From the NCBI GenBank assembly GCA_016873225.1, contig VGXS01000007.1:1-64000 (forward strand): DNA of 64,000 nt, in the 5' to 3' direction. The notes under the pieces were generated by a model. That model was not told the DNA's origin and ran no database searches. It saw only the letters and a program-made list of their open reading frames with translations. This DNA comes from Planctomycetota bacterium. Lineage in GTDB: Bacteria; Planctomycetota; Planctomycetia; Gemmatales; Gemmataceae. Each line of letters begins with the position of its first letter. Position 1 is the stretch's first letter. Position numbers and translations under genes: made by a program. Shown in pieces: positions 36,587-55,622 of this stretch.

Positions 36587-36794
36587 GTGGAGTTCTCCGG
36601 GTAGGAAGCGGTGGGAATCGGCTTGTTGTGCCGACAGTGCGGCTCCACCTTCCGTTACCGGGTTTATCGGCAATCATGGTCGTGGCCTTCATGCTGATTT
36701 CGTCAATCGTGCCGATTTTGCGGTCGACCTGGATTGCCTTGAGCGGGCTTCATTTCGATAAGTTGCAAAAAAGGATCCAAATCCAAAAACTGGA

Positions 36795-36888
36795 AAAGCC
36801 CCCAGCGGAGCCGGAGGCGGAGTGAGTGGGGTGTAATGAAGTTCACCCGCTCACTCCGGTGCTTCGCACCTCCGTTCGGGGCTCTTTT
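36795..36888 (-). terminator. Long imperfect hairpin downstream of oleC, probable operon terminator
   Basis: The outer arms AAAAGCCCCC.AGCGGAG and CTCCG.TTCGGGGCTCTTTT, plus an inner pair (CGGAGTGAGTGGGG with ACCCGCTCACTCCG), form a long stem. On the minus strand it ends in GGGGGCTTTTCCAGTTTTT, 190 nt after the oleC stop. It resembles the extra hairpin at 2210-2300. The remaining part of the 36587-37077 gap is AT-richer DNA with no gene seen. Confidence 0.6.
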
Positions 36889-37077
36889 GATTTTCAGAAA
36901 TGTTTCTTGATTTTTCGCAATCAGCAAATCGACGATTGGGTTGACGGCGAACTTGCATGATTCGGAAGTGATTTGAAGAAATTGTGTTTCTAACCAAATC
37001 AAACAATGGAGCCGCCCTGGCACGAGGCAGGTGTCGGGCGTCAACTCATGGATTGGCTGTGGAAGAGGGCTGAAGCA

Positions 37078-38619
37078 TCAGAGTTTCGCTGCCGCCCAGG
37101 CCGCGAGGGTTTCCCGCTCGATCTTGCTGTTGTGCCTGCGGTCCACAGGAAATCGCGGGTGAACCATGACGCTGGAGATGGGCAACCCCACCTTGGTGGC
37201 GCGTTCCAGCGCCATGGCGACCATCGTGTCGGGCGCCCCGGGCGCTGGTTCCAACACGAGCGCCGCGCGACCCTTCCCGCAGGCCACGAAAGCCGCGCGG
37301 GCCACTCCCGGCAAGTCAAGGAACATCGCCTCCGTGGCATCCGCTGGAATCGCCCATCCCGCCACGCTCACCACATGGGCCTGCCTGCCGAGATACCAAA
37401 GCATTCCGCGCTCATCGAGCCAACCGAGGTCGCCGGTCCGGTGCACCACCTCTCCATTGAGGATGATCTTGTGACGCTCATCGGCCTCGGGGCGGTTCCA
37501 GTAAGCCCGGGTGACCTGGGGGCCGGCCACCGCGATTTCGCCCCGGCCGCCATGGGCCAGCGCTTGTTGAGAATCCATGCCCGTGGCTCCCCCTTCCGGA
37601 AGGATCATCACCCGCGTGCCGGGGGCGGGCCGACCCAGGCAGATGCCGCGGCCTGCGCGCGTGACTTCCAAGGCTTCGCCAAGGATTTCCCGGTCGGATG
37701 CGCATGCCACCGGCAGCGCTTCGGTCATGCCGTAGGGGGTGTGCAACCGGGCGTCGGGCCGCAGAAGCGGCCTGACGCGCCGCACCAGCGTCCAGGGCAC
37801 CGGCGCCCCGGCGGAAACGAGGCGCTTGAGTCCTGACAGTCCTCCGCGTGATTCCGCGCCCGCGGCGAGGCGGGCCAGCACCGCCGGCGACGCGAACAGG
37901 TTGTCCACCCGGTGGCGGGCCGCCAAATCGAGCAGCATGCCGGCATCGACCGAGGCGGGGCGGGTGAAGTCCATGGGCGGAATGACAGCGGTCATCCTGA
38001 GGACGGGGGCGTAGAGGCCGAAAAGCGGGAAAGTCGAGAGGTCGGTTTCCCCCGGGGCGATGTCAAGCATCGATCCGAGCGCCGAAACCTGCGCGGCGAG
38101 GTTGCCGGCGGAGTAGACGGCTCCCTTGGCCGGGCCGGTGGATCCGCTTGTGTAGAGGATGGCGGCCGTGTCGCCGGGGCCCGCCGGGTGCGAAGGGGAC
38201 CCGCCCGCGGCGGCCTCGCGGAGCGCCTGGCACCCGGGCACCCAGCCGGCGCCGAGGCTGGCGACGACGCGCGCCCTTGGGCAGAGTCCAAGGGCCCAGC
38301 GGGCGATGATGGCCTTGGGAGACCCGATGAACGCGTGGCAGTCGGCCTCGCCAAGGCACTTCCTGAGCCCGGCCAGTCCCATGCCCGGGTCGACCATCAC
38401 CGCCACGGCCCCGATCCTGAACAGCCCGAAAAGGGCGGCGAAGAGGGTTGGCGAGGGGGGCGCCATCATGGCGACGCGGCAGCCGGGCCCGATGCCCATC
38501 GTCAGCATCGCCACCGCGAGCCGGTCGGAGGCCTCGGCGAGCCGCTCAAATGTCCATGACTGCCCGGCTTTGCGCCGGGAAGGGGCCATGATGGCAACAG
38601 CCCGGGGGCGGTCGCTCAC
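37078..38619 (-). CDS. oleC: OleC-type beta-lactone synthetase (AMP-dependent ligase fold)
   Basis: The product is 513 aa from a GTG at 38619. The adenylation motif reads ILYTSGSTGPAKGAVY and the downstream block TPYGMTEALPVACAS is characteristic of OleC rather than acyl-CoA ligases. RTGDLGWLDERGMLWYLGRQAHVV completes the ANL signature. In olefin synthesis OleC converts a beta-hydroxy acid to a beta-lactone using ATP. Protein-like codons (ISKLIPLLLEEA) extend upstream to an ATT at 38653-38655 with GAGG before it, so the true start may be non-standard. Last gene of the operon. Confidence 0.88.
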   Translation of the reverse strand: MSDRPRAVAIMAPSRRKAGQSWTFERLAEASDRLAVAMLTMGIGPGCRVAMMAPPSPTLFAALFGLFRIGAVAVMVDPGMGLAGLRKCLGEADCHAFIGSPKAIIARWALGLCPRARVVASLGAGWVPGCQALREAAAGGSPSHPAGPGDTAAILYTSGSTGPAKGAVYSAGNLAAQVSALGSMLDIAPGETDLSTFPLFGLYAPVLRMTAVIPPMDFTRPASVDAGMLLDLAARHRVDNLFASPAVLARLAAGAESRGGLSGLKRLVSAGAPVPWTLVRRVRPLLRPDARLHTPYGMTEALPVACASDREILGEALEVTRAGRGICLGRPAPGTRVMILPEGGATGMDSQQALAHGGRGEIAVAGPQVTRAYWNRPEADERHKIILNGEVVHRTGDLGWLDERGMLWYLGRQAHVVSVAGWAIPADATEAMFLDLPGVARAAFVACGKGRAALVLEPAPGAPDTMVAMALERATKVGLPISSVMVHPRFPVDRRHNSKIERETLAAWAAAKL

Positions 38620-38665
38620 GGCCTCCTCGAGAAGGAGGGGGATCAGCTTGGAAATGGTCCCATCC

Positions 38666-39583
38666 TCAGGGCGTAAGGAAGGCCTCGATCCGTCGAGAAC
38701 ATTCTAGCGGCTCATCTTCCATGAGCCAGTGTCCCGCCCCGTCAAGGACATGCGCCTGGGCCCCCGGCCAGGCTTTGCGCCAGTGCTCGAGGAACGGCGG
38801 GGTGAAGACGAAGTCACGAAGGCCCCAGAGCAGCAGCATGGGCTTCGACGCCAGGCAGGGCAGGGCCTCGGAGACATGCCTGACGAGATTCCAGGAAGGA
38901 TGTCCTTCGGACAGGGGGATGTCGAGGACGAAGCCGTGGATCGCCGCGCGTTCGTCCCACGAACCGTATGGCGCGAGGAAACCCCGGGCGGCCCCCTCGC
39001 CCAGCGGCCTGGTGACGCCGTGCCTGATGGCGCCCTTGACGAACAGGTTGAGCCCCCTGACAAGCCATGAGCCGAGGAGGGGAGTCCTGGCGAGGCGGAG
39101 GGAGGCGGGGATGGAGGCGCCGGGGGGCAGGCCGAACCCGGCGGTGTTCATGAGGACTAGCCTGCGCACGCGGCCGGGGTTCCTCACGGCCCAGGCCAGG
39201 GCGATCATGCCGCCCCAGTCGTGGGCGACCAGGTCGACAGGCTCGCCGGGCACGGTCATGTCGAGGAGTTCGGCGAGGTCGTCGACGCGCTCGGCGAGGC
39301 GGTGGTGATAACCGGGGGACGGGAGGTCGGAGAGGCCGCAGCCGAGGTGGTCGGGAGCGATGACGCGGTGCCCCCCGGCGAGCGCCGGAATGACGCCCCG
39401 GAAGAGGAACGACCAGGACGGGTTGCCATGCACGAGGACGACGGGCGGGCCGGAGCCCTCGTCGACATGGTGCATCCGGGAGCCCGAGGCGAGTGCGAGC
39501 CACCTGCCGCGGAAGGGGAACGAGCCGGGCGCCAGGCGGGAGAGGACCCGCGCGGCGCGGGCCGGCACCGGCGCCGTCACCAT
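38666..39583 (-). CDS. oleB: OleB-type alpha/beta hydrolase (beta-lactone decarboxylase)
   Basis: The product is 305 aa. The haloalkane-dehalogenase-like triad is visible: nucleophile Asp122 in VAHDWGGM, His285 in GAGHWLMED and probable acid Asp256 in LRDFVF; the oxyanion motif is VHGNPSWSF. OleB proteins share this HDWGG nucleophile and decarboxylate the beta-lactone to a cis-olefin. Its ATG overlaps the oleA stop by 7 nt, and oleC follows, which favours OleB over a true dehalogenase. Confidence 0.87.
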   Translation of the reverse strand: MVTAPVPARAARVLSRLAPGSFPFRGRWLALASGSRMHHVDEGSGPPVVLVHGNPSWSFLFRGVIPALAGGHRVIAPDHLGCGLSDLPSPGYHHRLAERVDDLAELLDMTVPGEPVDLVAHDWGGMIALAWAVRNPGRVRRLVLMNTAGFGLPPGASIPASLRLARTPLLGSWLVRGLNLFVKGAIRHGVTRPLGEGAARGFLAPYGSWDERAAIHGFVLDIPLSEGHPSWNLVRHVSEALPCLASKPMLLLWGLRDFVFTPPFLEHWRKAWPGAQAHVLDGAGHWLMEDEPLECSRRIEAFLTP

Positions 39584-40680
39584 GTCGCACCAAGCATGAG
39601 GCAGTTGAGGCCGCTGCCGATTCCCAGGAGGCCGACGCGCCTGCCGGGGGCGAGCAGCCGCCTCTCGTCGGCCAGGGCGACGGTGGCCGGGAGCGCCGCG
39701 GTGCCCATGTTGCCTAAAAACGGATAGGTTGAGTAGACTTGGTGGCTCGACAGCCCGAACGAGGCCAGCATGGCGTCGCGGTGCGGCGCGCCCACCTGGT
39801 GGCAGACCACCTGGTCGAAGTCGCGCGGCATCATGCCCATGGCCTGCAGGAACGCCTCCCAAGTGCGCTTGCCCAGCTCGAGGCCGTGGCGGAGGACGGC
39901 GACGGAGTCGGTGGCCATGGTCTGCACCACGGGCCCCAGGCCCGAGGCGAGGTGGACCAGAGGCGAGCCGGTGAGCGTGTCGGCCAGGCCCCAACGGCAC
40001 AGGGAGTGGAACCGGGTGTCCGACTGGCTCACGCCGCCGTGCAGCCTGGCGCCGATGCCGCGGCCCCGCCCCTCACCCACCACGACCGCCGCGGCGCCCG
40101 ACCCGCCGGTGAGCGTGGCCAGGGTCTCCCGGTAGTTTTCCATCGTGGGGCAGGCCAGCAGGTGGGAGATGGCGCGCTCGGTGATCTCGCGCGCCGACTC
40201 GCAGGCGACCACCACCCCCGAGCGGATCTGGCCCAGTTCGATCCGGTTGGCGAGGTCGATGATGCCGGTGAGGACGCCCAGGCAGGCGTTGGAGATGTCG
40301 TGAACCCAGCCGGCATGGCGGGCGCCCAGCAGGTCGGCGACACGGCAGGCGGTGGCCGGTTCGAAATGCTCGCGGCAGACGGAAGTGAAGAGGACGGCGT
40401 CGATCTCGGCGGGATCGCGGCCGGCGCGCTCGAGCGCCATGCGCGCCGCCCGGGCCGCGCTTTCCGCCAGGGGCGCGCCCGGTTCCCACCAGCGCCTCTC
40501 CCGGATGCCCGTCATCGCCTCAAGCTGGCCGCGCGGCACGCGCAGCGACTTGAGCGCCGGTTCCAGCCGCTCGTCCAGTTCCTCGCTGGAAACCACGACG
40601 GGAGCCAGGGCGCATGAAAACGACTCAAGGCGCACCCGGTCGTAGCGGGGAACCATCATCTTGCCGCCAAATTCAACCAT
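39577..40680 (-). CDS. oleA: OleA-type thiolase-fold head-to-head condensing enzyme
   Basis: The product is 367 aa. The catalytic Cys133 is in SNACLGVLTGI, His294 in VCHQVGAPHRDAML and Asn324 in FLGNMGTAALP. The OleA-specific Glu107 in FEPATAC and the GIRERRWWEP and GSGLNCLMLG blocks distinguish it from FabH. OleA condenses two acyl thioesters head-to-head to a beta-keto acid. The start at 40680 lies 9 nt after the upstream synthase stop but lacks a clear ribosome-binding site; ATGs at 40659 and 40656 are alternatives. Confidence 0.9.
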   Translation of the reverse strand: MVEFGGKMMVPRYDRVRLESFSCALAPVVVSSEELDERLEPALKSLRVPRGQLEAMTGIRERRWWEPGAPLAESAARAARMALERAGRDPAEIDAVLFTSVCREHFEPATACRVADLLGARHAGWVHDISNACLGVLTGIIDLANRIELGQIRSGVVVACESAREITERAISHLLACPTMENYRETLATLTGGSGAAAVVVGEGRGRGIGARLHGGVSQSDTRFHSLCRWGLADTLTGSPLVHLASGLGPVVQTMATDSVAVLRHGLELGKRTWEAFLQAMGMMPRDFDQVVCHQVGAPHRDAMLASFGLSSHQVYSTYPFLGNMGTAALPATVALADERRLLAPGRRVGLLGIGSGLNCLMLGATW

Positions 40681-40689
40681 AGAAACAAT

Positions 40690-43600
40690 TTAACGCATGG
40701 CGGCGGGTTCGGCCACAATCGGTTTCCAGCGGAGGCGGAACCTTTCCATGCCGTAGATCACCTTGTCGCCCACCACGAGCCAGCCACGCGCCTCCACTTC
40801 CCGGGCCGATTCATCGCGGCCGGTGATTTCCGCGGAAACCGTCACATGGCGGATTCCGGGGGTCACCTGCCCTCGGTAGACCCACCGATGCGGGGAACCG
40901 TCGACGAGGTCGCCCGTGCCGGGCCCCCAGCGGCGCAGGCAGTCGTACCACACCAACTGCAGGAACGCCTCGAGCCCCAATGAACCGGGCCAGACCGGGT
41001 CCTGGTAGAAATGCGCCTTGAAGAACCACGCCTCTGGATCGACCTCGACCCTGCCCTCGAGCCAGCCGAGGCCTTCGGGCCCGCCGGCGGGAAGCCAGGC
41101 GTAGGTGTCGAGCATGCGCCAGCGGTCGCGGGGAAGTCCCGGCCCCTCGGGAACCGGGGTGAAAACGGGAGCCTCCGCCGGCGCGGGCTTCCAGGGCTTG
41201 GCGTCGGAGAGGCCGACCTGCCGCGCCAGCGCCTCCTTGGGGAAGAATCCGAACGAGGTCTGGCCCGAATAGACCGGTTCGCCATCGAGGCGGGTGTCGA
41301 GGTCGTACTCAAGGATGATCATCCCGGCGGAGCGCGAGACCTTGGTCTGCGTCACGGTGGTGGCGAGGGTGCCGCGGCCGGGAACGACGCGGCGGTGGCG
41401 GACCGCCGAGCCGCCGAGGTTGCGGAACGACACATCCACCGGTGAGAGCAGGGCGGCGCCGCCGTGCGCCGCGAGCCAGCCGCACACCTGCAGCGCCGCC
41501 TCAAGCAGCACGGCGAACGGCACCTCCGGCTGGCCCGACTCGGCGATGTACCAGGGATCGGCGGGAACATCGTAGGCTCCGCGGGCCCTGGCGCCCGGGA
41601 GCAGCTTCCACGGTTCGGCCTTCACCGCCTCGATGCGGTCGAGGAACAGGAAAGGCGGGCCGGGCAGCCTGGCGATGACGCGGCCGGAATCGAAGATCCG
41701 GTAAGGTTCGCCGAACGCCTCGGAAGGCTTGCCGACGCAGTAGGCGAGGATCCGCCCGCGGGAGTAGGTCGCGGCGGGGCCGGGCGGGGCGGCGTCGCCG
41801 GCGCGCCACAGGGCGCTTATCGCGGACCCCGATAATCCGTTGAATGTGACCGCGAGGTTCTCCACAGAGACGATCGGCTTTCCGTCAATCAGCAGGATGG
41901 CGTCGGCCAGCGCGGAGGGGGCCGGCTCGAGGGAGCGGCCCGTCACGGTGATCTCGTAACGGAGCACGCGGCAGCCGGGCACCACCTGGCCCCGGCAGCG
42001 CAGCCGGCTGGTGATCCCGGGAGTCGGTTCCGCCGTCCACGAGCCTTCCTCGCCGAGCCAGCCCCATCGCCACATGAGCAGCCGGAGCGTCTGGGCGCAC
42101 GCCTCGTACATGAGCGTGCCGGGCATCACCCTGTCATCGACGAAGTGGCAGACCATGTGCCAATCGTCGGCGCTGATGGCGAGTTCCGCGGCGATGAAAC
42201 CGAGGCCGTGGGCCCCGCCGGCCGGGTCGATGGCCGGAACCGTGTCGAGCAGGGCGAGGCGTCCGCCGGGCAAGCGGGGGGCGCGGAGCGGGGGCAGGTT
42301 CGCGAAGGCGGCGCCGAAGGCCCCGGCGAAGTCGCCCGCGCGGAGCGCCGCGACCTGCCGCGCGTCGAGCGAACCGGCGCCCGGCGGCGCCGGCACCGGT
42401 GGCGCCAGCGAGGCGTCGACGGACTTGGTCGCCGGCATCACGAGGCCCTTGCCGCCGGCCAGTTCCGCCGGCGTGAAGAAGCCGGCGCAGCCTTCCCGCA
42501 TCGACAGGAGCGGCTTGCCGTCCACGGTGGCGTCGTACCGGAAGCGGAACAGGTGGGTTTCGCCGTGGCGGAAGAACTTGTCGACGCTGATGTCGTAGAC
42601 GATGGTGGATCCCGGCCCCGGCCGCCGGTCATGAAAGGTGATTTCAGCGTCGAGAAGGCGGTAATAGGCCAGGCCCCGCGTCTTGAAGTCGATGCCCAGC
42701 CATCCGGCCAGCAGCATGTCGGCCTGCCCGGCCTCGACCGACACGGCCAGCGGGATGGCCCCCTGGTCGAGGTACCAGGCGCCTTCCCTCACATCATGCT
42801 CGGTGACCACCCGGCCATGGCTCATCGAGCAAGGCTCGCCCTCGATCCGGGTCACGCGGTGAACAAGCAGCAACGGCTCATCGGGCAGGCGGACGCGGGA
42901 AGGGTAGCCGTCCACCGGCGCGAACCGCGATCCCATGGCATGGGCCACGCTTCCGCGGGCGAAGCTGACGCACTGCTCCCAGGTCATCGAGCGGCGGACA
43001 TCGGGAAGGGCCCCGGCTTCCATGGTCGCCATGACCGCGCCGGGGGCATCCGGTTCCGGCTGACGGGCCGCGAGGGCGCCCAGCCTTGAAAGCCGGTCGA
43101 GGGCGCCGGCGTGGGCCTCGAGCCAGGCGCCATGGGCCTCCCGGGTGGCGGCCATCGCCTCGGGCCAGCGGTCCCATGCTGCCGCGGGCTCTCCTTGCGC
43201 GACGGCGGGTGCGGATTCCGCCGCGACGGGCCGAGTGGCCGGTGTTGAAACCGGGACGGGCCGAGGGGCCGGTGTTGAAACGGGCCGGGCCGGTTCCGGC
43301 GCGGGCGCCGCCTGGCGCCTTCGGCCCGCGAACAACGGAGCGGGCCTCGGGCCGGCGGCATGGCGGCGCGGCGGGGGAGCGGCCCCGGGTTCGGGCGTGC
43401 CCGGCCATGTCCAGCCACACCGGTGAGCCACGAGCAGGGCCAGGGCCTGGGCCAGCGGAGCGAGGTCGTCGCGTCCGGGCGGATGGATCGCCGCGGTCGC
43501 GTGGGGTTTTCCGGCGAGGGTCTTGCCGATCCACCGCGACATCCCGGTGCCGGGCCCGGCCTCGAGGAACAATCGGGCGCCCTCGTCATGCATCCGGTTG

Positions 43601-46600
43601 ACGACCCTGGGCAGGTCGAGCGGCTCGAGGATTCCCCGGGTCAGGGCGTCCGCCAGCCCCGCGGGATTATGGGGTTCCGAGCGGCCCGTGGCGGTGAAAT
43701 AGACATCCACTCCGGGGCGTTTTTGTCCGTGACGGTGGTGCAGTTGGCGGTAGGCGTCGGCGCACGGACGCGCCGCGGAGCAATGACCCGCCGTCGAGTC
43801 GGCCAGCGGCGTGAAGCGCCCGATGAAGGGGGCCAGCCAGGCGGCCAGGGCCCGCACCTCCCCTCCCACGACGCACTCGCCCGGCGCGAGCGAGGCCAGC
43901 AGGAAAACCCTGTCCTGCCCGGCCAGCGATCGCAGCGCCTCCGAGGCGTCGGTGAGCAGCAGGGCGTTGGCCCAGCGGAAATCGTCATCGGGCCTCAGCC
44001 GGAAATGGATGCGCGCGGCGCGCCATGGCTCGACGAGGTCGTGGGTGAACAGGCTGGAAAGGAGCAGGTCCTGCCTGAGGCCCTCCAGGTCGGGCCAGAT
44101 GTCGGCGGCCACGAGTTGTGTCGATTCGCCGAGGCTGTAGCCCAGGGTGGCCGACCACGGCACGCCCAGCCGGTCGAGCACCCGGGCCGTGAGCCTGCCA
44201 AGCCCGACCTGGGCGAGGATTTTCTGGCATGGCGTCGCCCCCGCGACGGCGTCGGGCGAACCGCGCCAGAAGATGTCGGGCCTGACAATTTCCAGGTCGA
44301 GGTCCTCCGCGGCGATGGCGGGAAAAGCCCTGGCCAGGGCCCGTCCCATGCCGGCGAAGGCGCTTCCCGAACCGGGAAAAACCAGGGCGATCCGCCCACC
44401 GAGGGGTTCGGGCGAGGAAAAGGCGCGGCCCTCGAACCGGGCCGAAAGCGTCGCGAGGGATTCGGCTCCACCCTGCCTCACATAAGCCGCGACGGCGCGG
44501 CGCAGTTCGGAAACCGATTCCCCCGGCCGAGGCACCAGGGCCAGTCCCAGTCTCGCCGCGGGGTTTGCCGCGCCGCGTCCCGGGCCCGATCCATCCGAGG
44601 CTTCCAAGAGGGCCGCCAGTTCGTCGGCGCCATCCGCCTCGAAAGCCCGCAACGGCAACCCGGGGGCTTCCGCGGGTGTCGGGGCCGCCGACGATTCTTC
44701 CACCAGCACGGCCGCGCAACCGGCGTGCCTGTCCATCAGGCAGGCGCCGCCGGTGCGGGGTTCCATCGGGGAGGTCCTGAGCCAGGCGTCGCCGTCGCCG
44801 GGGTCGGCCAGCGGCGAGGGGCGGATTCCGGGGGGGCCGCCCGCGGGAAGCCGGTTCGACTCGAGGCAGCCGATGATTTCCACCACGCACTCGAGGCCGG
44901 CGGCGTGGTCGGGCACCCCGGTCGCGATTTTTCGGCGGGCCGTCGCCACCCCGTCGCGCCGCGTCCGCGGAGCCAGGAGTTCCACGAGGGCCTGTTCGAT
45001 CTCGGGACCGTCGGCGACCAGCCAGGCCTGCACCGTGCCCGGATGCGTCTCGCAGGGCGCCAGCGCCGATTCCACCGCCTGGCAAACCTGGGCGCCGGAA
45101 GGGTCGGGGCCACCCTCGCACGCCACCCCCTTGAGGATGGCGACGAGCGACCGGCCGGCCTTGGCCGCGGCCTGCAACCCCGCCACGGCCATCGCCACGG
45201 CGCGCGGCGGTCCGTGGGATTCATCGGCCTCCACGGCACCGACAAGCGCTAGGTCGACCTCGCCACCTTCTAGCGCGTCGACAGCCGCCTGCAGCGCCGC
45301 GACTCCCGAAAGCGGACCCGCCGAGATGGTGATCGACGGCCCGGTGAGGCGGAACTCCCTCGAGATCCGGCTTGGCGCCAGGCTCACCAGCGCCCCGAGC
45401 GTACGCTCGGCGTCCAGTGGCGGGTGGGCGTGGTCGCGGTCGGCGGGCGGCGGCACGAGGTGGCGAAGGTGGAAACGGCTGGCCCTTGGATCGAGGCCCG
45501 CGCCCAGGTACACGCCGGTCCTTTCGGGCAGCGGCCCCGAGGCTTCAAGGCGCGCCAGCAGGCGGGACGCCGCTTGCCAGGCCACGGCCTGCTGCGGAAG
45601 CATTCCCTCAAGCTCGGTGGGTGGAATCGACTGGTGGAACGCCTCGGGAAGCGAATCACCCGCGACAAGCCTTTCCTTTCCCAAAACGGCGAGCGTAGGA
45701 GGCGAGACACGGTCGAAGGCGACGGCCACGCCGCCTGACAGATGCTCCTCCACGAGCAGGTGGGCGTTGACGCCCCCGAACCCGAAGCCGCTCAGCGCCG
45801 CCCGCCTCGGAACCCCCGGCCCCCTCCGGCGCCATTCCTCCGGCGCCGTTGGCAGCCGGAATGCGCTTCCCTCAAGCGGGATTCCCGGGGCGGCCGACTC
45901 GAAGCCCGTGGCCGGGGGCAAGACGCCCTCGGAAACCGCCATGAGGACCTTGGCCAGGGCCGGCGCTCCCGCGGCGGTGAGCATGTGGCCGACATTCGCC
46001 TTCACCGAGCCCAGGACGCAGGCCCCGGCCGGCGCCCCGGACCACACCTCCTTGAGGCTGGCGAACTCGACCCGGTCGCCAAGCGGAGTTCCGGGAGCGT
46101 GGCACTCCACATAGTCGATCATGTCTGGCGACCAGCCCGCCCGGGCGTGGGCCCGGCGCATGGCGTCGGTTTGTCCGGCGGAGGAGGGCGTGAGCAGGTG
46201 GCCCGCAGGATCGTTCGACAGGCCCGCCGCGACGATGACGCCGAGGATTTTCTCGCCCCGGGCCACCGCGTCGGACAGGCGCCTCAGCGCGAACACCCCG
46301 GCCCCCTCGCCCACCACCAGGCCGTCGGCGCGGCCGTCGAACGGCGAGCAGCGTCCCGAGGGCGAGAGGGCCCTCAGCCGGGAGAAACCTGTTTGGGTGT
46401 AGAGCGGATCCGGGCAGGAGACGCCACCGGCCAGCACGAGGTCGGCGCGGCCACGAGCCAGCTCGCCCATGCCCAGGGCCAGGGCGTAGTAGGTGCTGGC
46501 GCAGGCCGCGTCGAGGGTGAGGCAGGCGCCCCGGGCCCCCACCGACGCTGCCAGGGCCCGCGCCGGGGCGAACGCGGGGTTCACGGCGTCGTCGCGCGGG

Positions 46601-47031
46601 TCGCCCGCGTCGCGGACAACGGCCCCGAGGGCTTCCAAGCCCGCGGAGGCTTCGCGCCTTTCACGCGCCATCGAGGTTTTCGTCGGCAGGGCGATGTGGC
46701 CCAGCACCACGCCAATCCGGGCCGGAGCGGGCAGCGACAGGCCACTGAGCGCCATGGCGCCGGCGCGCGCGGCCAAGGCGCGGCCGGGATCACCCGGCCC
46801 TTCGGGAAGTTCGGCCAACAGGCAGGCCCGCGTCGACAGCACGCTGTCGGCCCGGGCGCCGGACGGGTCGCGGAGCGATTCCGGATCGGCGCCCCATCGG
46901 GACGCTGGAACCGGGCCGCTGGCCGATTCCCGGGCCAGCACCATCCGCCACAGGCCGTGGGCGTCGACGCCGGGGGGGAACCATCCCCCCATGCCGACGA
47001 TCGCGACGGGTTCCTGCCGTGCCGGGGCCAT
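40690..47031 (-). CDS. pfaC: PUFA-type synthase subunit, KS-CLF-AT-DH-DH (Pfa3/PfaC-PfaB fusion)
   Basis: The product is 2113 aa. The ketosynthase (about 8-430) has Cys in LDAACASTYY (about 175), His in ECHAPGTPLGD and His in KANVGHMLTAAG. A second KS-like domain (about 440-660) has ITISAGPLSG, with Pro where the Cys should be, so it is a chain-length-factor type. An acyltransferase (about 890-1240) has GYSLGES. After a Pro/Ala-rich linker come two FabA-like dehydratase regions with active motifs HFVDDRVMPGTL (about 1631) and HFYQDPVWPGSL (about 2007), each preceded by a degenerate hot-dog domain. The order equals myxobacterial Pfa3, but no AGPAT domain follows. Confidence 0.9.
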   Translation of the reverse strand: MAPARQEPVAIVGMGGWFPPGVDAHGLWRMVLARESASGPVPASRWGADPESLRDPSGARADSVLSTRACLLAELPEGPGDPGRALAARAGAMALSGLSLPAPARIGVVLGHIALPTKTSMARERREASAGLEALGAVVRDAGDPRDDAVNPAFAPARALAASVGARGACLTLDAACASTYYALALGMGELARGRADLVLAGGVSCPDPLYTQTGFSRLRALSPSGRCSPFDGRADGLVVGEGAGVFALRRLSDAVARGEKILGVIVAAGLSNDPAGHLLTPSSAGQTDAMRRAHARAGWSPDMIDYVECHAPGTPLGDRVEFASLKEVWSGAPAGACVLGSVKANVGHMLTAAGAPALAKVLMAVSEGVLPPATGFESAAPGIPLEGSAFRLPTAPEEWRRRGPGVPRRAALSGFGFGGVNAHLLVEEHLSGGVAVAFDRVSPPTLAVLGKERLVAGDSLPEAFHQSIPPTELEGMLPQQAVAWQAASRLLARLEASGPLPERTGVYLGAGLDPRASRFHLRHLVPPPADRDHAHPPLDAERTLGALVSLAPSRISREFRLTGPSITISAGPLSGVAALQAAVDALEGGEVDLALVGAVEADESHGPPRAVAMAVAGLQAAAKAGRSLVAILKGVACEGGPDPSGAQVCQAVESALAPCETHPGTVQAWLVADGPEIEQALVELLAPRTRRDGVATARRKIATGVPDHAAGLECVVEIIGCLESNRLPAGGPPGIRPSPLADPGDGDAWLRTSPMEPRTGGACLMDRHAGCAAVLVEESSAAPTPAEAPGLPLRAFEADGADELAALLEASDGSGPGRGAANPAARLGLALVPRPGESVSELRRAVAAYVRQGGAESLATLSARFEGRAFSSPEPLGGRIALVFPGSGSAFAGMGRALARAFPAIAAEDLDLEIVRPDIFWRGSPDAVAGATPCQKILAQVGLGRLTARVLDRLGVPWSATLGYSLGESTQLVAADIWPDLEGLRQDLLLSSLFTHDLVEPWRAARIHFRLRPDDDFRWANALLLTDASEALRSLAGQDRVFLLASLAPGECVVGGEVRALAAWLAPFIGRFTPLADSTAGHCSAARPCADAYRQLHHRHGQKRPGVDVYFTATGRSEPHNPAGLADALTRGILEPLDLPRVVNRMHDEGARLFLEAGPGTGMSRWIGKTLAGKPHATAAIHPPGRDDLAPLAQALALLVAHRCGWTWPGTPEPGAAPPPRRHAAGPRPAPLFAGRRRQAAPAPEPARPVSTPAPRPVPVSTPATRPVAAESAPAVAQGEPAAAWDRWPEAMAATREAHGAWLEAHAGALDRLSRLGALAARQPEPDAPGAVMATMEAGALPDVRRSMTWEQCVSFARGSVAHAMGSRFAPVDGYPSRVRLPDEPLLLVHRVTRIEGEPCSMSHGRVVTEHDVREGAWYLDQGAIPLAVSVEAGQADMLLAGWLGIDFKTRGLAYYRLLDAEITFHDRRPGPGSTIVYDISVDKFFRHGETHLFRFRYDATVDGKPLLSMREGCAGFFTPAELAGGKGLVMPATKSVDASLAPPVPAPPGAGSLDARQVAALRAGDFAGAFGAAFANLPPLRAPRLPGGRLALLDTVPAIDPAGGAHGLGFIAAELAISADDWHMVCHFVDDRVMPGTLMYEACAQTLRLLMWRWGWLGEEGSWTAEPTPGITSRLRCRGQVVPGCRVLRYEITVTGRSLEPAPSALADAILLIDGKPIVSVENLAVTFNGLSGSAISALWRAGDAAPPGPAATYSRGRILAYCVGKPSEAFGEPYRIFDSGRVIARLPGPPFLFLDRIEAVKAEPWKLLPGARARGAYDVPADPWYIAESGQPEVPFAVLLEAALQVCGWLAAHGGAALLSPVDVSFRNLGGSAVRHRRVVPGRGTLATTVTQTKVSRSAGMIILEYDLDTRLDGEPVYSGQTSFGFFPKEALARQVGLSDAKPWKPAPAEAPVFTPVPEGPGLPRDRWRMLDTYAWLPAGGPEGLGWLEGRVEVDPEAWFFKAHFYQDPVWPGSLGLEAFLQLVWYDCLRRWGPGTGDLVDGSPHRWVYRGQVTPGIRHVTVSAEITGRDESAREVEARGWLVVGDKVIYGMERFRLRWKPIVAEPAAMR

Positions 47032-47041
47032 CGGGGGGATC

Positions 47042-50000
47042 TCAGGTCGCGCCGGCGGCGCGGAGTGTGGTGTGGCGGAATGCCCGGGCCAGCGACGCGT
47101 CGATGGTGCATTCCAGGCCGCTCACGCGCGCCGAGGCGTTCCCCGAACCGTCGAGGAATTCGGCATCGGCCACGAGCGCGTGGTCGGTCGAGCGGGTCAC
47201 GCGCATCACCAGGCGGCAGCCCTCGGCGGGAAACCGGCCGAAAAGCTCGAGCCTTCCCAGCCGCGAAGGCAGGCATCCGGCGTGGCCTCGCTCCTGCGCG
47301 CAGATGATCGCGGCCTGGAACAGGCCGTCCAGGGCCCACGGGTCGATGATCCATCGTCCCCTGAGCGGATTCTCCATCATCCTGGCCGGACTTGGCGCGG
47401 GCAGCAGCCTGGCCACCATCCCGGCCGGGCCGGCGGCCTCGATGGACTCGATCACCCTCCACTGCGTGCCGTGGAACAGCCTCGACGGATACAGGTCTTC
47501 AGCGGCGAGGGACTGGCCCGCCGGCCATTCCAGCAGGCCGCGGTGGTCGCTTCCGGGTTCGCCCATCGCGAAGGAGGCGCGGTAGCGGTCGAGCCCGGCG
47601 CGGTCGGAAGGGCAGCGCAGGGCCACATCGACATGGTCGTCGGAACTTCCCCGGCTGACGGCCTCGATGGCCGCCGATTCACCCCCGGCCAGCACGATCC
47701 CCTTGAGCACCTGGACATCGGCGACCGTGGCGACGGCCTGGCCCGGCCTGGCCAGCAGCGCCGTGTGCGCCATCCATTCCAGGGCGACGGCAAAGGGAAG
47801 AACCGCCCGGCCGTCGAGCACATGGCCCTCGAGGAAGGCGTGGGTGGACATCGCCAATGTCCGCGACCATTCGGGCCTCGCGCGCGCCGGCGCGGGCCCG
47901 GCCGGCTGGACATCGGGCAGCCGCGAACCCGCGGCCACCACCAGCACCTCGGGCGGGCCGTCGAGGGCAAGCTCCGCGGCGAGGAACGCCCCGCCGGCCC
48001 CGGGCTCGATAAGGCCCACGCCCTCGGAGTCGAACAGGCGGGCCAGGGCCGAATCCACCATGCCGCCGCGCCACGGGCCCCAGTCGATGGTGACCACGCG
48101 GCATCCGGGATGCCGGTGCGCCAGCGCCCGGCCCACGCAGGCCAGGGCGGCGTTCGCCATCGCGTAGTCGAGTTGCCCGGCGCGGCCAAGCCGCCCCGTG
48201 ATCGAGCCGAACAGCGCGATGGCTGAAAGTCCGGAAACGGGAATCACCCGCAGGAGATTTTCAAGCCCGGCGACCTTGGTGTTCCAGACGCGGGCCACCT
48301 CGGCGGCCGTCTTCGATTCGATCCGGCCATCGGCGAGCACGCCGGCGCCATGGACGATGGCGCGGGCGGGCTTGTCCGCCCCCAGCCGGGGCGCCAGGGC
48401 CGACGACAGCGACGCGGGATCGGTCACATCGGCGGCGACATATTCGGCGGATGATCCGGCTTCCCTCAGCCGGGCAAGCGTGCGCTCCACCTCGCGCGAG
48501 GCCAGCAGGCGCGCCGCGCGCGTCCGCGCCGACGGCAGGGCCAGCCCCATCGCCAGAAACGCCCGCACCAGCGACGGCTCATCGGTAAGCGGGGCCAACT
48601 CCGCCGACCCCGTGTCGATCGGCGTGCGGCCCAGCAGGATGAACCGGAGCGGCATCACGCGCGCCATGCCGACGGCCACCTCGGTGGTCACGCCGCGTCC
48701 GCCGCCCGTCACCACGACCGTGTCGCCCGGATTCAAGGGCCAGCGCCCCGCTGGCGGCTCGCCATTGTTTCTCAGCGTGGCCGCGACAAAGCCGCCGGCG
48801 CCGAGTCCGATTTCAACGGGGGCGTCGGCTCGGCCAAGGACCTCCGCGACCACCGAAGCGTTGACGCCGGGCCCGCGATCAACCAGCCTCACCGCCACAC
48901 CGGGCCATTCGCGGGCCGCCGTTTTCAGGGCGCCGGAGATCAGTCCCCGTTCGGCCATGTTGCCGCCGGCGCCGCCCCAGGCCCCGTCGATCTCCACCAC
49001 TCCGGCAAGCAGGGCCATGCCCTTTCGGGCCGCTTCGGAAAGGCCGGCGCGCGCCGCCTGCAGCCACCGGGTGGTTTCCCAGGCGAGCGCGGCGGCGGGC
49101 ATCGGGCCCGGCGCCAGCACCAGTCCATCGAACGATCCGGTCAACTGGCCGGGATCGGTGAGCATGTCGACCCGCCACCGGCAGGTCAGTTCCAGTTCCC
49201 GGGCCAGTTCGGACTGGTCACCGGCCAGCAGAACCCGCGAGCCCGGAGGGAGCAGGAGCGGCCCCGGGACGGGCGTCCAGGGCTCGAAAATCAGCTCGTG
49301 GCGCTCCAATGTCGTTTTTTTTTCCGGGGTGGCCGGAGTTTGCGGGGCCTGCGGGCCCGAGAGGTGCTGGGCGAGTTGCCTGAGGGTCCGGAGGGTTCCC
49401 ATGAGGTCGGGGGTGACTGCCGGGGCGTCGGGAAGTTTTTCGGAGACCCCGGCGAGGATTTCAACGCGCTTAATGGAGTCGATGCCGAGGTCGGCGTCCA
49501 GCGCGAGGTCCTCGCCAAGCGCCTCGACGGGGTAGCCGGTTTTCTCGGCGACCACGGACCTCAGGGTGGCGAGCGCGGAGTCGGCCGACCTGCCCGGCGC
49601 CGGGGAAACCGTCGGCGCAAAGACTTGGGGCGAGGCCGCCGCGACCGGAGCGGAACCCGAGAGGTGCCGGGCGAGTTGCCTGAGGGTCCGGAGGGTTCCC
49701 ATGAGGTCGGGGGTGACGGCTGGAGCGTCGGGAAGTTTTTCGGAGACCCCGGCGAGGATTTCAACGCGCTTGATGGAGTCGATGCCGAGGTCGGCGTCCA
49801 GCGCGAGGTCCTCGCCGAGCGCCTCGACGGGGTAGCCCGTTTTTTCAGATATCACCGATCGCAAGATGGATAAGACATCACGGCCGCCCGGGGCGCGCTC
49901 GGGCGCCGGAGCGACGGGCGAGGCCGCCCGCGCCGGGGCGGCGGCGGGAACTGGCGAGGGAACACGCGGCGCGGGGGAGGGGGCCACCGCCGCGACGGGG

Positions 50001-53000
50001 GCCGACGGGGCGGGAGGGGGCGCGTAGGCGACGGGCGCGGCGGCAACGGGGGCAGGCGCGGCCGCCGGTTGGTATTCCGCCGGGCGGCCCTCGACGAGGG
50101 CCATCAGCGCCCGTTGCGCCGATTCCTGCGTCTCGAGGAACTGCCGGTGAAGCCGGGCGTTGTCCTCATGCATGCGCGCCAGCAGGGCCATGGCCTCGCG
50201 GGCCAATCCCGCGTTGCCGGGGGAGGGTTGGGAAGCGGACATCGCGCTTGGTACCTCGGAGCGGACTTTGGTCGGTTGTCGCGTCGCGGCGGACGGGGCC
50301 GGAGCGGCGATCGGTGCCGGGTTGGCCGCGAGGGGCGGCAGGGGCGCCACCGCCGGCCGGGGCTTCATGTGGTTGGCCCCCGACAGCGGTACCGTCATGG
50401 GCGTCGGCGCGGGCGGGTCTTCCGGCGGTGATTCCCATGCCGACAGCCTCACCGGAACACCCAGGGCGGCCAGGTGGGCCAGCGCCCGGGCCAGGCGCGG
50501 CAGGCCTCCCGGTTGGTCGGGGTCGGGGTCGATGGGCACGGCGGGCTTGTCGCCCAGCCTGGCGGCAAGCCCCGAGAGGACCTTGCCCGGACCGGATTCG
50601 ATGAACAGGTCGGCGCCGTTGTCCAGCAGCCATCGCAGGCAGGAGACAAACCGGATCTCGCTGCTGAGTTGGCGCGCCAGTTGGCTGGCGGCGAGGGCGG
50701 GGTCGGCGGGATGCGGCGCGCCCGAGAAGCCGGAAAGCACCACGCGGCCCGCGGCGGGCCCGAGGGGTTCGGTGGCCAGGTGCCGGGCCAGCAGGTCGCT
50801 CGCCGGCGCCAGGCGCGGATGATGGAAGGCTCCGGCGACCTCGAGTCTCACCACGCGATGGCCCGACGACTCAATCAACCGCGCCGCGGCGTCGATCGCC
50901 GGGGCGGGGCCTGAAATCACCACCTGCTCGGGGCCGTTGTGGTTGGCCGGCACCACCTCGGCGAGCGACGGATCGGAGGCGAGCAGCGCGACCACGCGGT
51001 CGCGGGGCGCCAGCACCGCCGCCATGGCCCCGGCGAACGACTGGCCGGCGTCGCGCATGGCGCCCGAGCGCACCGCCACCAGGTGGTGCATCGACTCGGC
51101 GGGCAACCTGCCCGCCCAGGCCAGGGCGGGGAGTTCGCCGAGGCTGTGGCCGCAGGCGGCCCAGGCCCCGATGCCGAACCGTTCGAGGAGCCTTGCCGCG
51201 CCGAGGCCGGTCGCCGCGAGGGCGGCCTGGCAGGCACGGGTGTCCGTGGACAGGGTGTCGGGGGCCGGGGCGCTCACCGGATCGACGATCCTGTCGAGTG
51301 CCGGCATTTCGGGGAAGCGGGCGGCCATGGCCGCGGCGGCGGCGTCAAGTTCCGCGGCCACCTCCGGGAAGACGCACGCGAGTTCACGGAACATTCCGGC
51401 CTTTTGCGAGCCTTGCCCTGGAAACAGCAGAACCGGGCGCCGCGGGGCCGGTCCCATGCCGGCGCGCGCCGGCCCTTGGGCGGCCCGGCCTTCCCGGGCG
51501 GCGGCGATCGCGTCGCGGCAGGCCGCCAGCAGGGCGTCGCGGTCGCCATCGGCCCAGGCCACGGCCAGACGGACCGGCGACGACGGGTCGAACGATTCCC
51601 GGCACCGCCTGGCGAAGGGCGGGAACAGGGGACCCCGCGGGTCGGGGATTTCGTCGATGGACGACTCGATGCCCGCCCAGTCGGCGGCGCCCCATGCGAG
51701 GATCTCCACCGACCCGTCCCACGCGGGCGAAGCCGGCGAGCCGTGCTCCTCGAGCACCGCGTGGAAGTTGCTGCCGCCGAAGCCGAAGGCGCTGACGGCG
51801 GCGCGTCGCGGGCGCCCGCCCGCCGGCGCCGGCCAATGGCGGGCCTTGCGGGGCAGGAAGAATGGCGAGTCGGCCGCGGCGAACTCGGCCCTTTCGCTTT
51901 CCGTCTTGAGGGTGGGCGGCAGCACCCGGTGGCGCAGCGCCAAGGCGGCCTTGACGAGGCCCGCGGCGCCCGCGGCGCCCTTGGCGTGCCCGATCTGCGA
52001 CTTGACGGATCCGAGGGCGCACCACGGTCCATCGCGGCCCGACTTGCCGAAGAGGTCGAACAGGGCCGACAGCTCCACGCCGTCGCCCGCCTTGGTGCCC
52101 GTGCCGTGCGCCTCCACGAGGCCGATGTCGCCGGCGCCCACGCCCGCCTGGGCCCAGGCGCGCCTCATCGCGCGGGCCTGGCCTTCCTTCGCGGGGGCGT
52201 AGATCGCCTGGCCCCGTCCGTCGCTTGATGTTCCCAGTCCCTTGATGACCGCGTGAACGGCGTCGCCGTCGCGCAGGGCGTCCGGCAACCGTTTGAGCAC
52301 CACGAGGCCCAGCCCCTCGCCCAGGATGGTGCCGTCGGCGTCGGCGGCGAACGGCCTCGCCTCGCCCCGCCTGGAGAGCGCCGGCGTCTTGCTGAAGCAG
52401 GCGTACATGAACACATCGGTGAAGGTGTCGATGCCGCCGGTCACCACGATGTCGGCGCGGCCCGACTGGAGTTCCATCGCCGCCTGGTGAACCGCCGCGA
52501 GGCTGCTGGCGCACGCGGCGTCGACGACGCAGTTGGTTCCGTGGAGGTCGAACCGGCTGGCGATGCGCCCGGCGACGACATTGCCCAGGAGGCCGGGGAA
52601 CGAGTCCTCGGTCCATTCCGGATAGGTGGAGGCGATGCGGGCCAGGGCGTCGTTGATCCTGTCCTCGGGAATGCCGGCCTCGCGCATGGCCCGGCGCCAA
52701 CGGGGATGGTCGAGGCGGGCCCCCAGCGGGATGAGAAGCTCAAGCGCGCTCGTGACGCCCACGATCACCGAGGCGCGGTCGCGCGGCAGGGGCTTGCCCG
52801 GGTCGCGGGGAAGGGCGGCGTATCCGGCGTCGAGAAGCGCCTGCCTGGCCACATGCAGGCCCAAAAGCTGGGCCGTGTCGGTGGCCTCGAGGCTGGCGGG
52901 TGTCACCCCGTACTCGGCGGGGGAGAACGGCACCGGGGACAGGAAGGCGCCGCGCGCGGCGTACACCATGTCGCGGCGCGACGGATCCGGATCGAAATGG

Positions 53001-53152
53001 TCCGACGGCTTCCAGCGGTCGGCGGGAATGTCGCGGATCTGGTCGATGCCCTGCAGGACCGTGTTCCAGAATCCGCGGGTGCCCGGCTTGCCGGGGAAGA
53101 GGCACCCCAGGCCGGTGATCGCCAGGGGCGTGAACGGGTCGCGCTGGCTCAC
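47042..53152 (-). CDS. pfaA: PUFA-type synthase subunit, KS-AT-ACP-ACP-KR-DH (PfaA/Pfa2)
   Basis: The product is 2036 aa from a GTG at 53152 that overlaps the upstream stop by 4 nt (GTGA). KS: Cys in VDAACASSLAAV (about 213), EAHGTGTKAGD and SQIGHAKGAAG. Malonyl-type AT: GHSLGELPAL (about 668). Two ACP domains with LGIDSIKRVEIL (Ser near 1125 and 1225). KR: VVTGGGRGVTTEVA (about 1479) and LDYAMANAALA. C-terminal PKS-type DH: HVLDGRAVLP (about 1776) and DPWALDGLFQ. It carries out condensation, reduction and dehydration on ACP-bound chains. Two ACPs is a low number for the family. Confidence 0.93.
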   Translation of the reverse strand: MSQRDPFTPLAITGLGCLFPGKPGTRGFWNTVLQGIDQIRDIPADRWKPSDHFDPDPSRRDMVYAARGAFLSPVPFSPAEYGVTPASLEATDTAQLLGLHVARQALLDAGYAALPRDPGKPLPRDRASVIVGVTSALELLIPLGARLDHPRWRRAMREAGIPEDRINDALARIASTYPEWTEDSFPGLLGNVVAGRIASRFDLHGTNCVVDAACASSLAAVHQAAMELQSGRADIVVTGGIDTFTDVFMYACFSKTPALSRRGEARPFAADADGTILGEGLGLVVLKRLPDALRDGDAVHAVIKGLGTSSDGRGQAIYAPAKEGQARAMRRAWAQAGVGAGDIGLVEAHGTGTKAGDGVELSALFDLFGKSGRDGPWCALGSVKSQIGHAKGAAGAAGLVKAALALRHRVLPPTLKTESERAEFAAADSPFFLPRKARHWPAPAGGRPRRAAVSAFGFGGSNFHAVLEEHGSPASPAWDGSVEILAWGAADWAGIESSIDEIPDPRGPLFPPFARRCRESFDPSSPVRLAVAWADGDRDALLAACRDAIAAAREGRAAQGPARAGMGPAPRRPVLLFPGQGSQKAGMFRELACVFPEVAAELDAAAAAMAARFPEMPALDRIVDPVSAPAPDTLSTDTRACQAALAATGLGAARLLERFGIGAWAACGHSLGELPALAWAGRLPAESMHHLVAVRSGAMRDAGQSFAGAMAAVLAPRDRVVALLASDPSLAEVVPANHNGPEQVVISGPAPAIDAAARLIESSGHRVVRLEVAGAFHHPRLAPASDLLARHLATEPLGPAAGRVVLSGFSGAPHPADPALAASQLARQLSSEIRFVSCLRWLLDNGADLFIESGPGKVLSGLAARLGDKPAVPIDPDPDQPGGLPRLARALAHLAALGVPVRLSAWESPPEDPPAPTPMTVPLSGANHMKPRPAVAPLPPLAANPAPIAAPAPSAATRQPTKVRSEVPSAMSASQPSPGNAGLAREAMALLARMHEDNARLHRQFLETQESAQRALMALVEGRPAEYQPAAAPAPVAAAPVAYAPPPAPSAPVAAVAPSPAPRVPSPVPAAAPARAASPVAPAPERAPGGRDVLSILRSVISEKTGYPVEALGEDLALDADLGIDSIKRVEILAGVSEKLPDAPAVTPDLMGTLRTLRQLARHLSGSAPVAAASPQVFAPTVSPAPGRSADSALATLRSVVAEKTGYPVEALGEDLALDADLGIDSIKRVEILAGVSEKLPDAPAVTPDLMGTLRTLRQLAQHLSGPQAPQTPATPEKKTTLERHELIFEPWTPVPGPLLLPPGSRVLLAGDQSELARELELTCRWRVDMLTDPGQLTGSFDGLVLAPGPMPAAALAWETTRWLQAARAGLSEAARKGMALLAGVVEIDGAWGGAGGNMAERGLISGALKTAAREWPGVAVRLVDRGPGVNASVVAEVLGRADAPVEIGLGAGGFVAATLRNNGEPPAGRWPLNPGDTVVVTGGGRGVTTEVAVGMARVMPLRFILLGRTPIDTGSAELAPLTDEPSLVRAFLAMGLALPSARTRAARLLASREVERTLARLREAGSSAEYVAADVTDPASLSSALAPRLGADKPARAIVHGAGVLADGRIESKTAAEVARVWNTKVAGLENLLRVIPVSGLSAIALFGSITGRLGRAGQLDYAMANAALACVGRALAHRHPGCRVVTIDWGPWRGGMVDSALARLFDSEGVGLIEPGAGGAFLAAELALDGPPEVLVVAAGSRLPDVQPAGPAPARARPEWSRTLAMSTHAFLEGHVLDGRAVLPFAVALEWMAHTALLARPGQAVATVADVQVLKGIVLAGGESAAIEAVSRGSSDDHVDVALRCPSDRAGLDRYRASFAMGEPGSDHRGLLEWPAGQSLAAEDLYPSRLFHGTQWRVIESIEAAGPAGMVARLLPAPSPARMMENPLRGRWIIDPWALDGLFQAAIICAQERGHAGCLPSRLGRLELFGRFPAEGCRLVMRVTRSTDHALVADAEFLDGSGNASARVSGLECTIDASLARAFRHTTLRAAGAT
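49359..49566. repeat. ACP-coding direct repeat, copy 2
   Basis: It is nearly identical at DNA level to 49659-49866, at an offset of exactly 300 bp, with only a handful of substitutions over ~200 bp. It encodes the second ACP domain of the PfaA-type synthase. Confidence 0.9.
49659..49866. repeat. ACP-coding direct repeat, copy 1
   Basis: It pairs with 49359-49566. The ~90-bp spacer between the copies is unlike either copy and encodes the Ala/Pro-rich linker. It encodes the first ACP domain in protein order. Confidence 0.9.
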
Positions 53153-54720
53153 GCCGTGGCCCTCGCGCCCAGGGGGGGACAACAGCGCCTTTCGATCTCG
53201 CGGGTCTCGAGTGGTTCCACGCGCGGCGACAGGTCGGGCCCGGCGCCGCAAAGCGACGCGATTTCCGCCCGCTTGATCACGGCGGCGCCGTACATCAGGT
53301 TCAGGGAGACGGCGTACAGCGTCCGCCGCGAGGGCTCGGCGAGGAAGGTGCCGCGCGTCCACTCGTTGAACGCGCCCATGCCCGGGCCGCACCACACCTG
53401 GAAATCGGTCCGGCGCGATTCCAGGCCGGCCGTCGCCCAGCGCGAGGCCTGCGACAGGTACCACCGGAACACCAGCGCCATCTTGTGGCGGGCGTCGGCG
53501 GCGGCGCGCGCCAGTTGCGCCGGGTCGCGCCTCGAGAAGAACGACTCGCAGTCGGCCCAAACCGAGTCGAACGGCTTGCCGAGGATCTGGCCCTCAAGCT
53601 GCTGCCTCTCGTGCGCGGGCATGGCGCCGATGCCTTCGTATTGGCGATACCAATCGTAGAGTTTCTGGGCCCGCATGGCGAACATGGTGCCGCGCTTGAG
53701 CACCTGCACCTTGACGCCCATCTCGAACATGTCCGCCGCCGGGGCCATCGCGCAGTCGGCCTGCTCGGCCTGCGCCAGCATCGCGCGAACCGCCTCCGAT
53801 GTTCCCGACTCCACGCAGGCCTGGTGGATGGTGCCGGCCATCACATAGGCGGCTCCCATGGAGAACGCCGCGGCCACCGCCTGCGGCGTGGCGATGCCGC
53901 CGGCGAGGCCCACCCGCGGGGATTTCTCGTAACGGTGCTCCGCCACCATCCGGTCGCGGAGCGCCACGATGCTGGGGAACAGGGTCAGCGCCGGGCGGTT
54001 GTCGGTGTGGCCGCCGGAATCGGCCTCGGCGGTGATGTCATCGGCAAGCGGCAGCCGGGCGGCCAACTGCGCCTGCCCTTCGTTGATGAATCCGCTTTTC
54101 TGCAGTTCCCCAACCAGGCGGGCCGGCGCCGGGCTCAGGAACTTCCTGGCCACCTCCACGCGGGAAACCTTCGCGATCACCTGGCAGGCGGCGACCGGCC
54201 GCCCCTGTCCGTCGGCCCTGAGCCCCGCGAGGCGGTATTTCACCAGGGGCAAGGTCACATCGAGGTACGCCGAAGCCTCGACGCGGGCCACGCCGTGCCT
54301 GAGGATCGCGTCGGCGTGCGCCATTTCGGTGGCGGGGTCGGCGGGGGCGTGCAGCAGGTTGCATCCCCATGAGCCTTGGCCGAGCGTGCCCTTGAGGCGC
54401 GCCAGCGCCCGGTCAACCGCCTCGGGAGACTGGCCCGCGGCGCCGTAAAAGCCGAGGCAACCGGCGCGCGCGGCCGCCTCCACCAGCGATTCTGACGCGA
54501 TGCCATGCGCCATCGATCCGGCCGCGTAGGCCATTTTCAGGCCGTGGTCGCGACGGAAACCGGCATTTCCCAGGTCGCCCGGCAGGATGGCCGGGACACT
54601 CAGGGACGAGCCGCGACCCTCCGGCCCGGCCTCGTCATCAAACCTCCAGGCATGGCCTCCCGGAAGCACGCACAGCGGGCGGGCCAACTGGTTCAGGGCT
54701 TGGGCGAACGATGGCTGCAT
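53149..54720 (-). CDS. pfaD: PfaD-type trans-acting enoyl reductase (FMN, nitronate monooxygenase fold)
   Basis: The product is 523 aa from the ATG at 54720 (MQPSFAQALNQLARP). TIM-barrel flavoprotein blocks are visible: MAYAAGSMAHGIASESLVEAA, SWGCNLLHAP, DITAEADSGGHTDNRP and VGLAGGIATPQAVAAAF. This matches PfaD, which reduces enoyl-ACP double bonds during polyene synthesis. GTG codons at 54798 and 54762 are alternative starts and no strong ribosome-binding site decides. First synthase gene of the operon, 4-nt overlap with the next. Confidence 0.9.
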   Translation of the reverse strand: MQPSFAQALNQLARPLCVLPGGHAWRFDDEAGPEGRGSSLSVPAILPGDLGNAGFRRDHGLKMAYAAGSMAHGIASESLVEAAARAGCLGFYGAAGQSPEAVDRALARLKGTLGQGSWGCNLLHAPADPATEMAHADAILRHGVARVEASAYLDVTLPLVKYRLAGLRADGQGRPVAACQVIAKVSRVEVARKFLSPAPARLVGELQKSGFINEGQAQLAARLPLADDITAEADSGGHTDNRPALTLFPSIVALRDRMVAEHRYEKSPRVGLAGGIATPQAVAAAFSMGAAYVMAGTIHQACVESGTSEAVRAMLAQAEQADCAMAPAADMFEMGVKVQVLKRGTMFAMRAQKLYDWYRQYEGIGAMPAHERQQLEGQILGKPFDSVWADCESFFSRRDPAQLARAAADARHKMALVFRWYLSQASRWATAGLESRRTDFQVWCGPGMGAFNEWTRGTFLAEPSRRTLYAVSLNLMYGAAVIKRAEIASLCGAGPDLSPRVEPLETREIERRCCPPLGARATA

Positions 54721-54835
54721 GAACACGGCTGAAGGTGTTTCAAGGGCGCACAAAATGATGGAGACCACCCGGTCGCCACAACCGCGGCCTGAATCCACTT
54801 CATGCTACTGACGGATTACCGGTTCGCCAGACAGA

Positions 54836-55510: not shown

Positions 55511-55622
55511 GCGGCCCTTCCCTATTCCTTCCGGCTTGCGTCCGAACCCGTTTCCCGGTTACCCGGCGACGGTTGGATGCCGATGAATGAACGGTGATAT
55601 TAGCGGAATCGGGGAGCCTCGC

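Follow-up and report, generated by a model that had tools for sequence, protein, structure and literature searches.

A pfa-ole gene cluster of the Type I kind in the Gemmataceae and its predicted polyene hydrocarbon product

Described systems that couple Pfa and Ole enzymes

In Geobacter bemidjiensis, which makes hentriacontanonaene (C31:9), the genes pfaD, A, B, C, oleA, B, C, D and pfaE stand in tandem, according to a 2016 review (PMC4882568). The 2011 survey of Shulse and Allen placed a "Type I" synthase in Gemmata obscuriglobus and in Geobacter, proposed that it supplies olefin precursors and described ole genes as 'often linked' (PMC3098273). Working in E. coli, Allemann and colleagues found that OleA links the Pfa and Ole pathways, the pfa genes and OleA being sufficient for a 31:8 ketone; Shewanella and Photobacterium use this same synthase to make EPA (PMC6463001). 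Planctomycetes are said to contain C31:8 and C31:9 hydrocarbons in a paper that cites the descriptions of Schlesneria and Singulisphaera (PMC2649909). C31:9 has also been reported from Desulfotalea psychrophila, whose genome is said to encode no other known PUFA pathway (PMC2649909), and because of this report C31:9 alone would not prove the pfa-ole route. A comparison of Isosphaeraceae describes type I PKS clusters with Geobacter daltonii homologues, and OleA is not named in the passages cited (PMC5352709). Our search of the literature, in which journal coverage was partial, found no paper devoted to a pfa-ole cluster in Gemmataceae.

Here we analyse a window of 64,000 nucleotides from a planctomycete genome of 81.8% completeness, in which six minus-strand genes, pfaD, pfaA, pfaBC, oleA, oleB and oleC, run head to tail from 54720 down to 37078. 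The first-pass annotation of this DNA knew of no described operon of such composition. That claim has to be given up, for the G. bemidjiensis tandem and the Type I cluster are both in print, and the locus belongs to the published Type I kind (PMC4882568, PMC3098273). Judging from gene content and order, we consider it probable (about 0.8) that the synthase feeds OleA and that the Ole enzymes join two chains into a very long polyene, probably C31:9 or a near relative.

The six genes, their products and their flanks

Table 1. Genes of the pfa-ole row, with positions in the window
Gene and product	Position	Strand	Start and basis
pfaD, enoyl-reductase-like subunit	53149..54720	-	ATG 54720; longest ORF from GTG 54798; TIGR02814
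pfaA: KS, AT, two ACP, KR, PKS-type dehydratase	47042..53152	-	GTG start; TIGR02813, Pfam
pfaBC fusion: KS, KS-like/CLF-like, AT-like, FabA-type stretches	40690..47031	-	Pfam, NCBIfam
oleA, head-to-head condensing thiolase	39577..40680	-	NF006720, structure match, residues
oleB, alpha/beta-hydrolase, predicted beta-lactone decarboxylase	38666..39583	-	Abhydrolase_1; kept oleA-oleC position
oleC, AMP-binding enzyme, predicted beta-lactone synthetase	37078..38655	-	AMP-binding; NF006754 and two olefin models

The pfaA start overlaps the pfaD stop by 4 nt, oleA and oleB overlap by 7 nt, and gaps of 10 and 9 nt separate pfaA from pfaBC and pfaBC from oleA, all of which bears out the order, strand and spacing given in the first-pass annotation. 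Between oleB and oleC, a gap of 10 nt holds only if oleC starts at ATT 38655; to the first ATG, GTG or TTG start (GTG 38619) the gap is 46 nt. At roughly the corresponding position, located by eye, locus L081 has GTG and L080 has ATC, and it appears that oleC begins at the rare start codon. The six genes likely form one operon, and we infer a single transcript.

Three of the products pass the curated NCBIfam cut-offs, namely PfaD (TIGR02814, 580.5 bits against 449.25), PfaA (TIGR02813, 1057.6 against 1010.1) and OleA (NF006720, 423.8 against 285), and OleB and OleC fall below. For OleC, the top model, NF006754, gave 465.3 bits, just under its cut-off of 478, and the next two, both of olefin beta-lactone synthetase, gave 406.7 (cut-off 900) and 329.1 (cut-off 850). 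OleB matched only dehalogenase models in NCBIfam, with haloalkane dehalogenase at the top (152.7 bits, below the cut-off of 241); the place of oleB between oleA and oleC is kept in relatives. PfaBC is a single frame of 2113 aa with KS, KS-like, AT-like and FabA parts, in which NCBIfam models of KS and FabA type matched and the PfaB model scored weakly (30.7 against 144.3). Pfam marks three FabA-type dehydratase stretches, of which two carry the His motif; the AT shows itself only by a GYSLGE motif and by models that match weakly. Thus read, the domain set of a Pfa synthase is complete: KS, AT, tandem ACP, KR, a second KS/CLF, FabA-type DH and a separate ER.

The solved structures closest to OleA are 3s21 and 3row, which we take to be Xanthomonas OleA; for OleB and OleC, solved structures matched only at the level of the general superfamily. 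As presumed catalytic residues we used Cys, Glu, His and Asn in OleA, Asp and His in OleB, three positions in OleC and a Tyr-Lys pair in OleD. When aligned with relatives from the best 80 of 545 loci, the four OleA residues are kept in 76 of 76 sequences, the OleB Asp in 74 of 74 and the His in 73 of 74 (one gap), the three OleC positions in 60 of 60 and the two OleD positions in 50 of 50. Paralogues of pfaD and oleA elsewhere in the genome were excluded, as it holds a single PfaD match and one OleA match over the cut-off. The sole match to the carrier-activating PF01648 family (71.7 bits, in a frame of about 250 residues) lies on another contig, C1.

Might the synthase mainly make PUFA for membrane lipids, with the Ole enzymes diverting only a part, as in Shewanella? 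The same synthase does make EPA in Shewanella and Photobacterium (PMC6463001), but among the six genes there is no acyltransferase-to-glycerol or thioesterase match, and the ole genes come after pfaBC at a spacing of about 10 nt, so that we hold such a division of labour to be improbable and prefer a synthase that serves OleA.

A hairpin proposed in the first-pass annotation to follow oleC does not stand out from chance: shuffled versions fold just as well as the two overlapping stretches examined (z 0.92 and -0.69), and terminator-like sites in 36600-55700 number 9 against 10.4 expected. In the second fold, about 33 bases around 36969-37001 form a stem-loop, with no T-run behind it. On the oleC side, a 946-residue frame with a long GKGA/GDPGTKGA-like repeat run occupies 33833-36673, and an enoyl-ACP-reductase-like gene (306.3 bits against a cut-off of 356) lies at 32792-33721, about 3.4 kb beyond oleC. 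On the other side are deoC (54836-55510; TIGR00126, 220.8 bits against 117.3), which immediately precedes pfaD in the three genomes of the genus, and a 1064-residue repeat protein (56958-60152) with six DUF5649 stretches and FG-GAP matches. As a candidate pathway gene, deoC was rejected: among 30 other pfaD loci, viewed with at most 1.5 kb of flank, it occurs near pfaD in one, on the opposite strand.

Conservation of the cluster and displacement of oleD

Our named loci (L numbers), the best 80 of 545 when ranked by similarity of OleA, do not fairly represent oleA genes as a whole, and carry 10 kb of flank, which puts pfaD out of reach. In 72 of these best 80 of 545, a same-strand pfaBC lies upstream of oleA; where the upstream flank is 3 kb or longer, it does so in 62 of 65 (the exceptions being L091, L119 and L152). 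No more than 100 bases separate the pfaBC and oleA matches in 49 loci, and pfaA is present in 45 of the 51 whose upstream flank is 9.5 kb or longer. Downstream of oleA, again among the best 80 of 545, loci with at least 6.5 kb carry oleB in 46, oleC in 43 and oleD in 40 of 47 cases, and an oleB match is missing from two of 73 with at least 1.2 kb. The record titles of these best 80 of 545 include Planctomycetota, Geobacter, Geomonas, Desulfuromusa, Elusimicrobia, KSB3, Hydrogenedentota, Verrucomicrobiales and a gammaproteobacterium. Two loci titled Candidatus Kuenenia stuttgartiensis, L081 and L083, carry the cluster and group with Gemmataceae, and their titles look wrong; L081 is the same genome as G057, placed in the genus of the window. 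The cluster is also present in the cultured Zavarzinella formosa (L155) and, with oleABCD, in a Singulisphaera record (L115) from a strain other than the described one.

Within the order, PfaD passes its cut-off in 71 of 102 Gemmatales genomes, OleA in 74 and both in 66; PfaD occurs without OleA over the cut-off in 5 of the 71, and OleA without an unbroken PfaD over the cut-off in 8 genomes. Distances were taken in 68 genomes, the 66 plus two (G006, G009) in which the PfaD match is in two pieces. In 29 of the 68, pfaD and oleA share a contig, always on the same strand and 11.8-15.8 kb apart. In the other 39, pfaD and oleA fall on separate contigs; we sorted these genomes by eye into six in which pfaD lies apart from oleA, with at least 19.9 kb present downstream of pfaD (G001, G004, G053, G054, G067, G068), one borderline case (G046, 17.05 kb) and 32 that are not decidable, the contig ending within 10.1 kb. 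The two genes are thus linked in 29 of the 36 genomes that can be judged; the genes are not scattered in all relatives, which the first-pass annotation would have counted against its reading, most of those judged keeping them together. Since pfaD is away from oleA in 6 or 7 of 36 and PfaD occurs without OleA in 5 of 71, the link is not obligatory.

Could the pfa and ole genes then be neighbours by chance and serve different products? The six or seven genomes with a distant pfaD would fit this, but the genes of the row overlap or nearly touch, and their order is kept in the 62 of 65 loci above, which span several phyla by record title (among the best 80 of 545). We regard a chance neighbourhood as extremely unlikely, and a joint Pfa and Ole line remains the preferred reading.

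What the operon lacks is oleD, a requirement that the first-pass annotation overlooked. The 64-kb window holds no OleD-like gene or remnant (best match E 0.094 over 40 residues). The source genome has ten 3Beta_HSD-family matches. Two of them, on contigs C36 and C2, were compared with the OleD model, to which the C36 protein reaches 384.9 bits against a cut-off of 580, a value attained in none of the 102 Gemmatales genomes; the C2 protein reaches 147.5 bits and fits a hopanoid-type model slightly better. In the order-wide search, the C36 protein is the one OleD match of the source genome at E 1e-60 or better.

OleA and OleD are both present in 70 Gemmatales genomes, on the same contig in 51. 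In 47 of these 51, oleD shares the strand of oleA and is found 2.5-4.3 kb downstream of it; oleD is 12.1 kb away on the opposite strand in G039, about 1.0 Mb away in the single-contig genomes G052 and G087, and upstream of pfaD in G057. The 19 genomes with oleA and oleD on different contigs include the source genome and G056, also of the window's genus. DNA around oleD matches among the source genome (C36), G056 (C475) and G057 (C14), and in G057 this conserved block sits just upstream of deoC and pfaD. Judged by eye, oleD of the genus (L160, 1-8334; L161, 8890-17080) is preceded by a sulfatase-like run and a cyclase-/prenyltransferase-like protein, and the sulfatase-like/oleD block is conserved between members of the genus.

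Midpoint-rooted trees were built from 76 OleA, 74 OleB, 60 OleC and 50 OleD sequences, including the window and its genus relatives; weak or short matches were dropped, and characterised OleB and OleC were not among the sequences. The genus of the window groups with L082, L100 and L109 in the OleA, OleB and OleC trees (support 1.0, 0.956 and 1.0) and with L082 and L100 in the OleD tree (0.996). L082 and L100 still have oleD at the end of the cluster. As the four trees agree on the relatives, oleD has likely moved within the genome in the window's genus, which is the simplest reading. At least G052 and G087 also have oleD outside the cluster, and its displacement is the one unusual, if modest, trait of this locus. 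That oleD left an ancient pfa-oleABCD operon to put the reduction under separate control in this genus, letting the cell switch the line between polyene ketone and olefin, is a very doubtful idea.

Without oleD, the operon alone would stop at a beta-keto acid or ketone, and an olefin therefore needs the OleD-like protein of C36. One could argue that a long polyene ketone is the main product, the beta-keto acid from OleA losing CO2 unaided and the distant oleD perhaps not being co-expressed. The absence of oleD from the window and the 31:8 ketone obtained in E. coli with pfa genes and OleA alone (PMC6463001) speak for this. However, an OleD-like gene with the presumed Tyr-Lys pair is kept in the source genome and in both genus relatives, and the operon keeps oleB and oleC, which are useless to a ketone line. 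We find a ketone as the main product unlikely, and an olefin the better prediction.

Predicted pathway and comparison with known systems

In the pathway that we favour, PfaA, PfaBC and PfaD would assemble an acyl chain near C16 that contains several double bonds, their carrier domains being activated by the PF01648-family protein from C1. OleA would then join two such chains head to head, OleD, from its other locus, would reduce the beta-keto acid, OleC would close the beta-lactone, and OleB would remove CO2 to leave the olefin. Chain length is not readable from the genes. The dedicated pfa-plus-ole line put forward in the first-pass annotation stays the best reading and agrees with the published work on Geobacter, Shewanella and Photobacterium, although not as a line complete in one operon, from which oleD is missing. 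A Geobacter-type pfa-ole line is common in one planctomycete order (PfaD and OleA together in 66 of 102 genomes), and the cluster would provide a genetic explanation for the C31 polyenes that planctomycetes are reported to contain (PMC2649909). The role of such polyene hydrocarbons could be tested, because cultured strains such as Zavarzinella formosa carry the cluster.

How does the locus compare with the known systems? The substrate of the Xanthomonas oleABCD enzymes is a straight or branched fatty acyl-CoA, and to our knowledge no Pfa synthase goes with these genes; nor do we know of a pfaBC fusion among the pfa genes of Shewanella and Photobacterium. The clustering of OleA, OleB and OleC is shared with Xanthomonas (PMC7064751). 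With Shewanella and Photobacterium the likeness is that OleA takes chains from the Pfa synthase, whereas in P. profundum the pfa and ole genes form two adjacent operons with pfaT between them and EPA is made too (PMC6463001). With the Type I cluster of Shulse and Allen the locus shares the pfaBC fusion and the planctomycete order; the text of that survey gives no detail on the ole arrangement of Gemmata, and the likeness is drawn from the fusion (PMC3098273). In G. bemidjiensis the gene order is the same, with pfaD first and the ole genes directly behind the pfa genes; there, oleD and pfaE lie inside the cluster, whereas in the source genome of the window another contig carries oleD, and C1 the one PF01648 match (PMC4882568).
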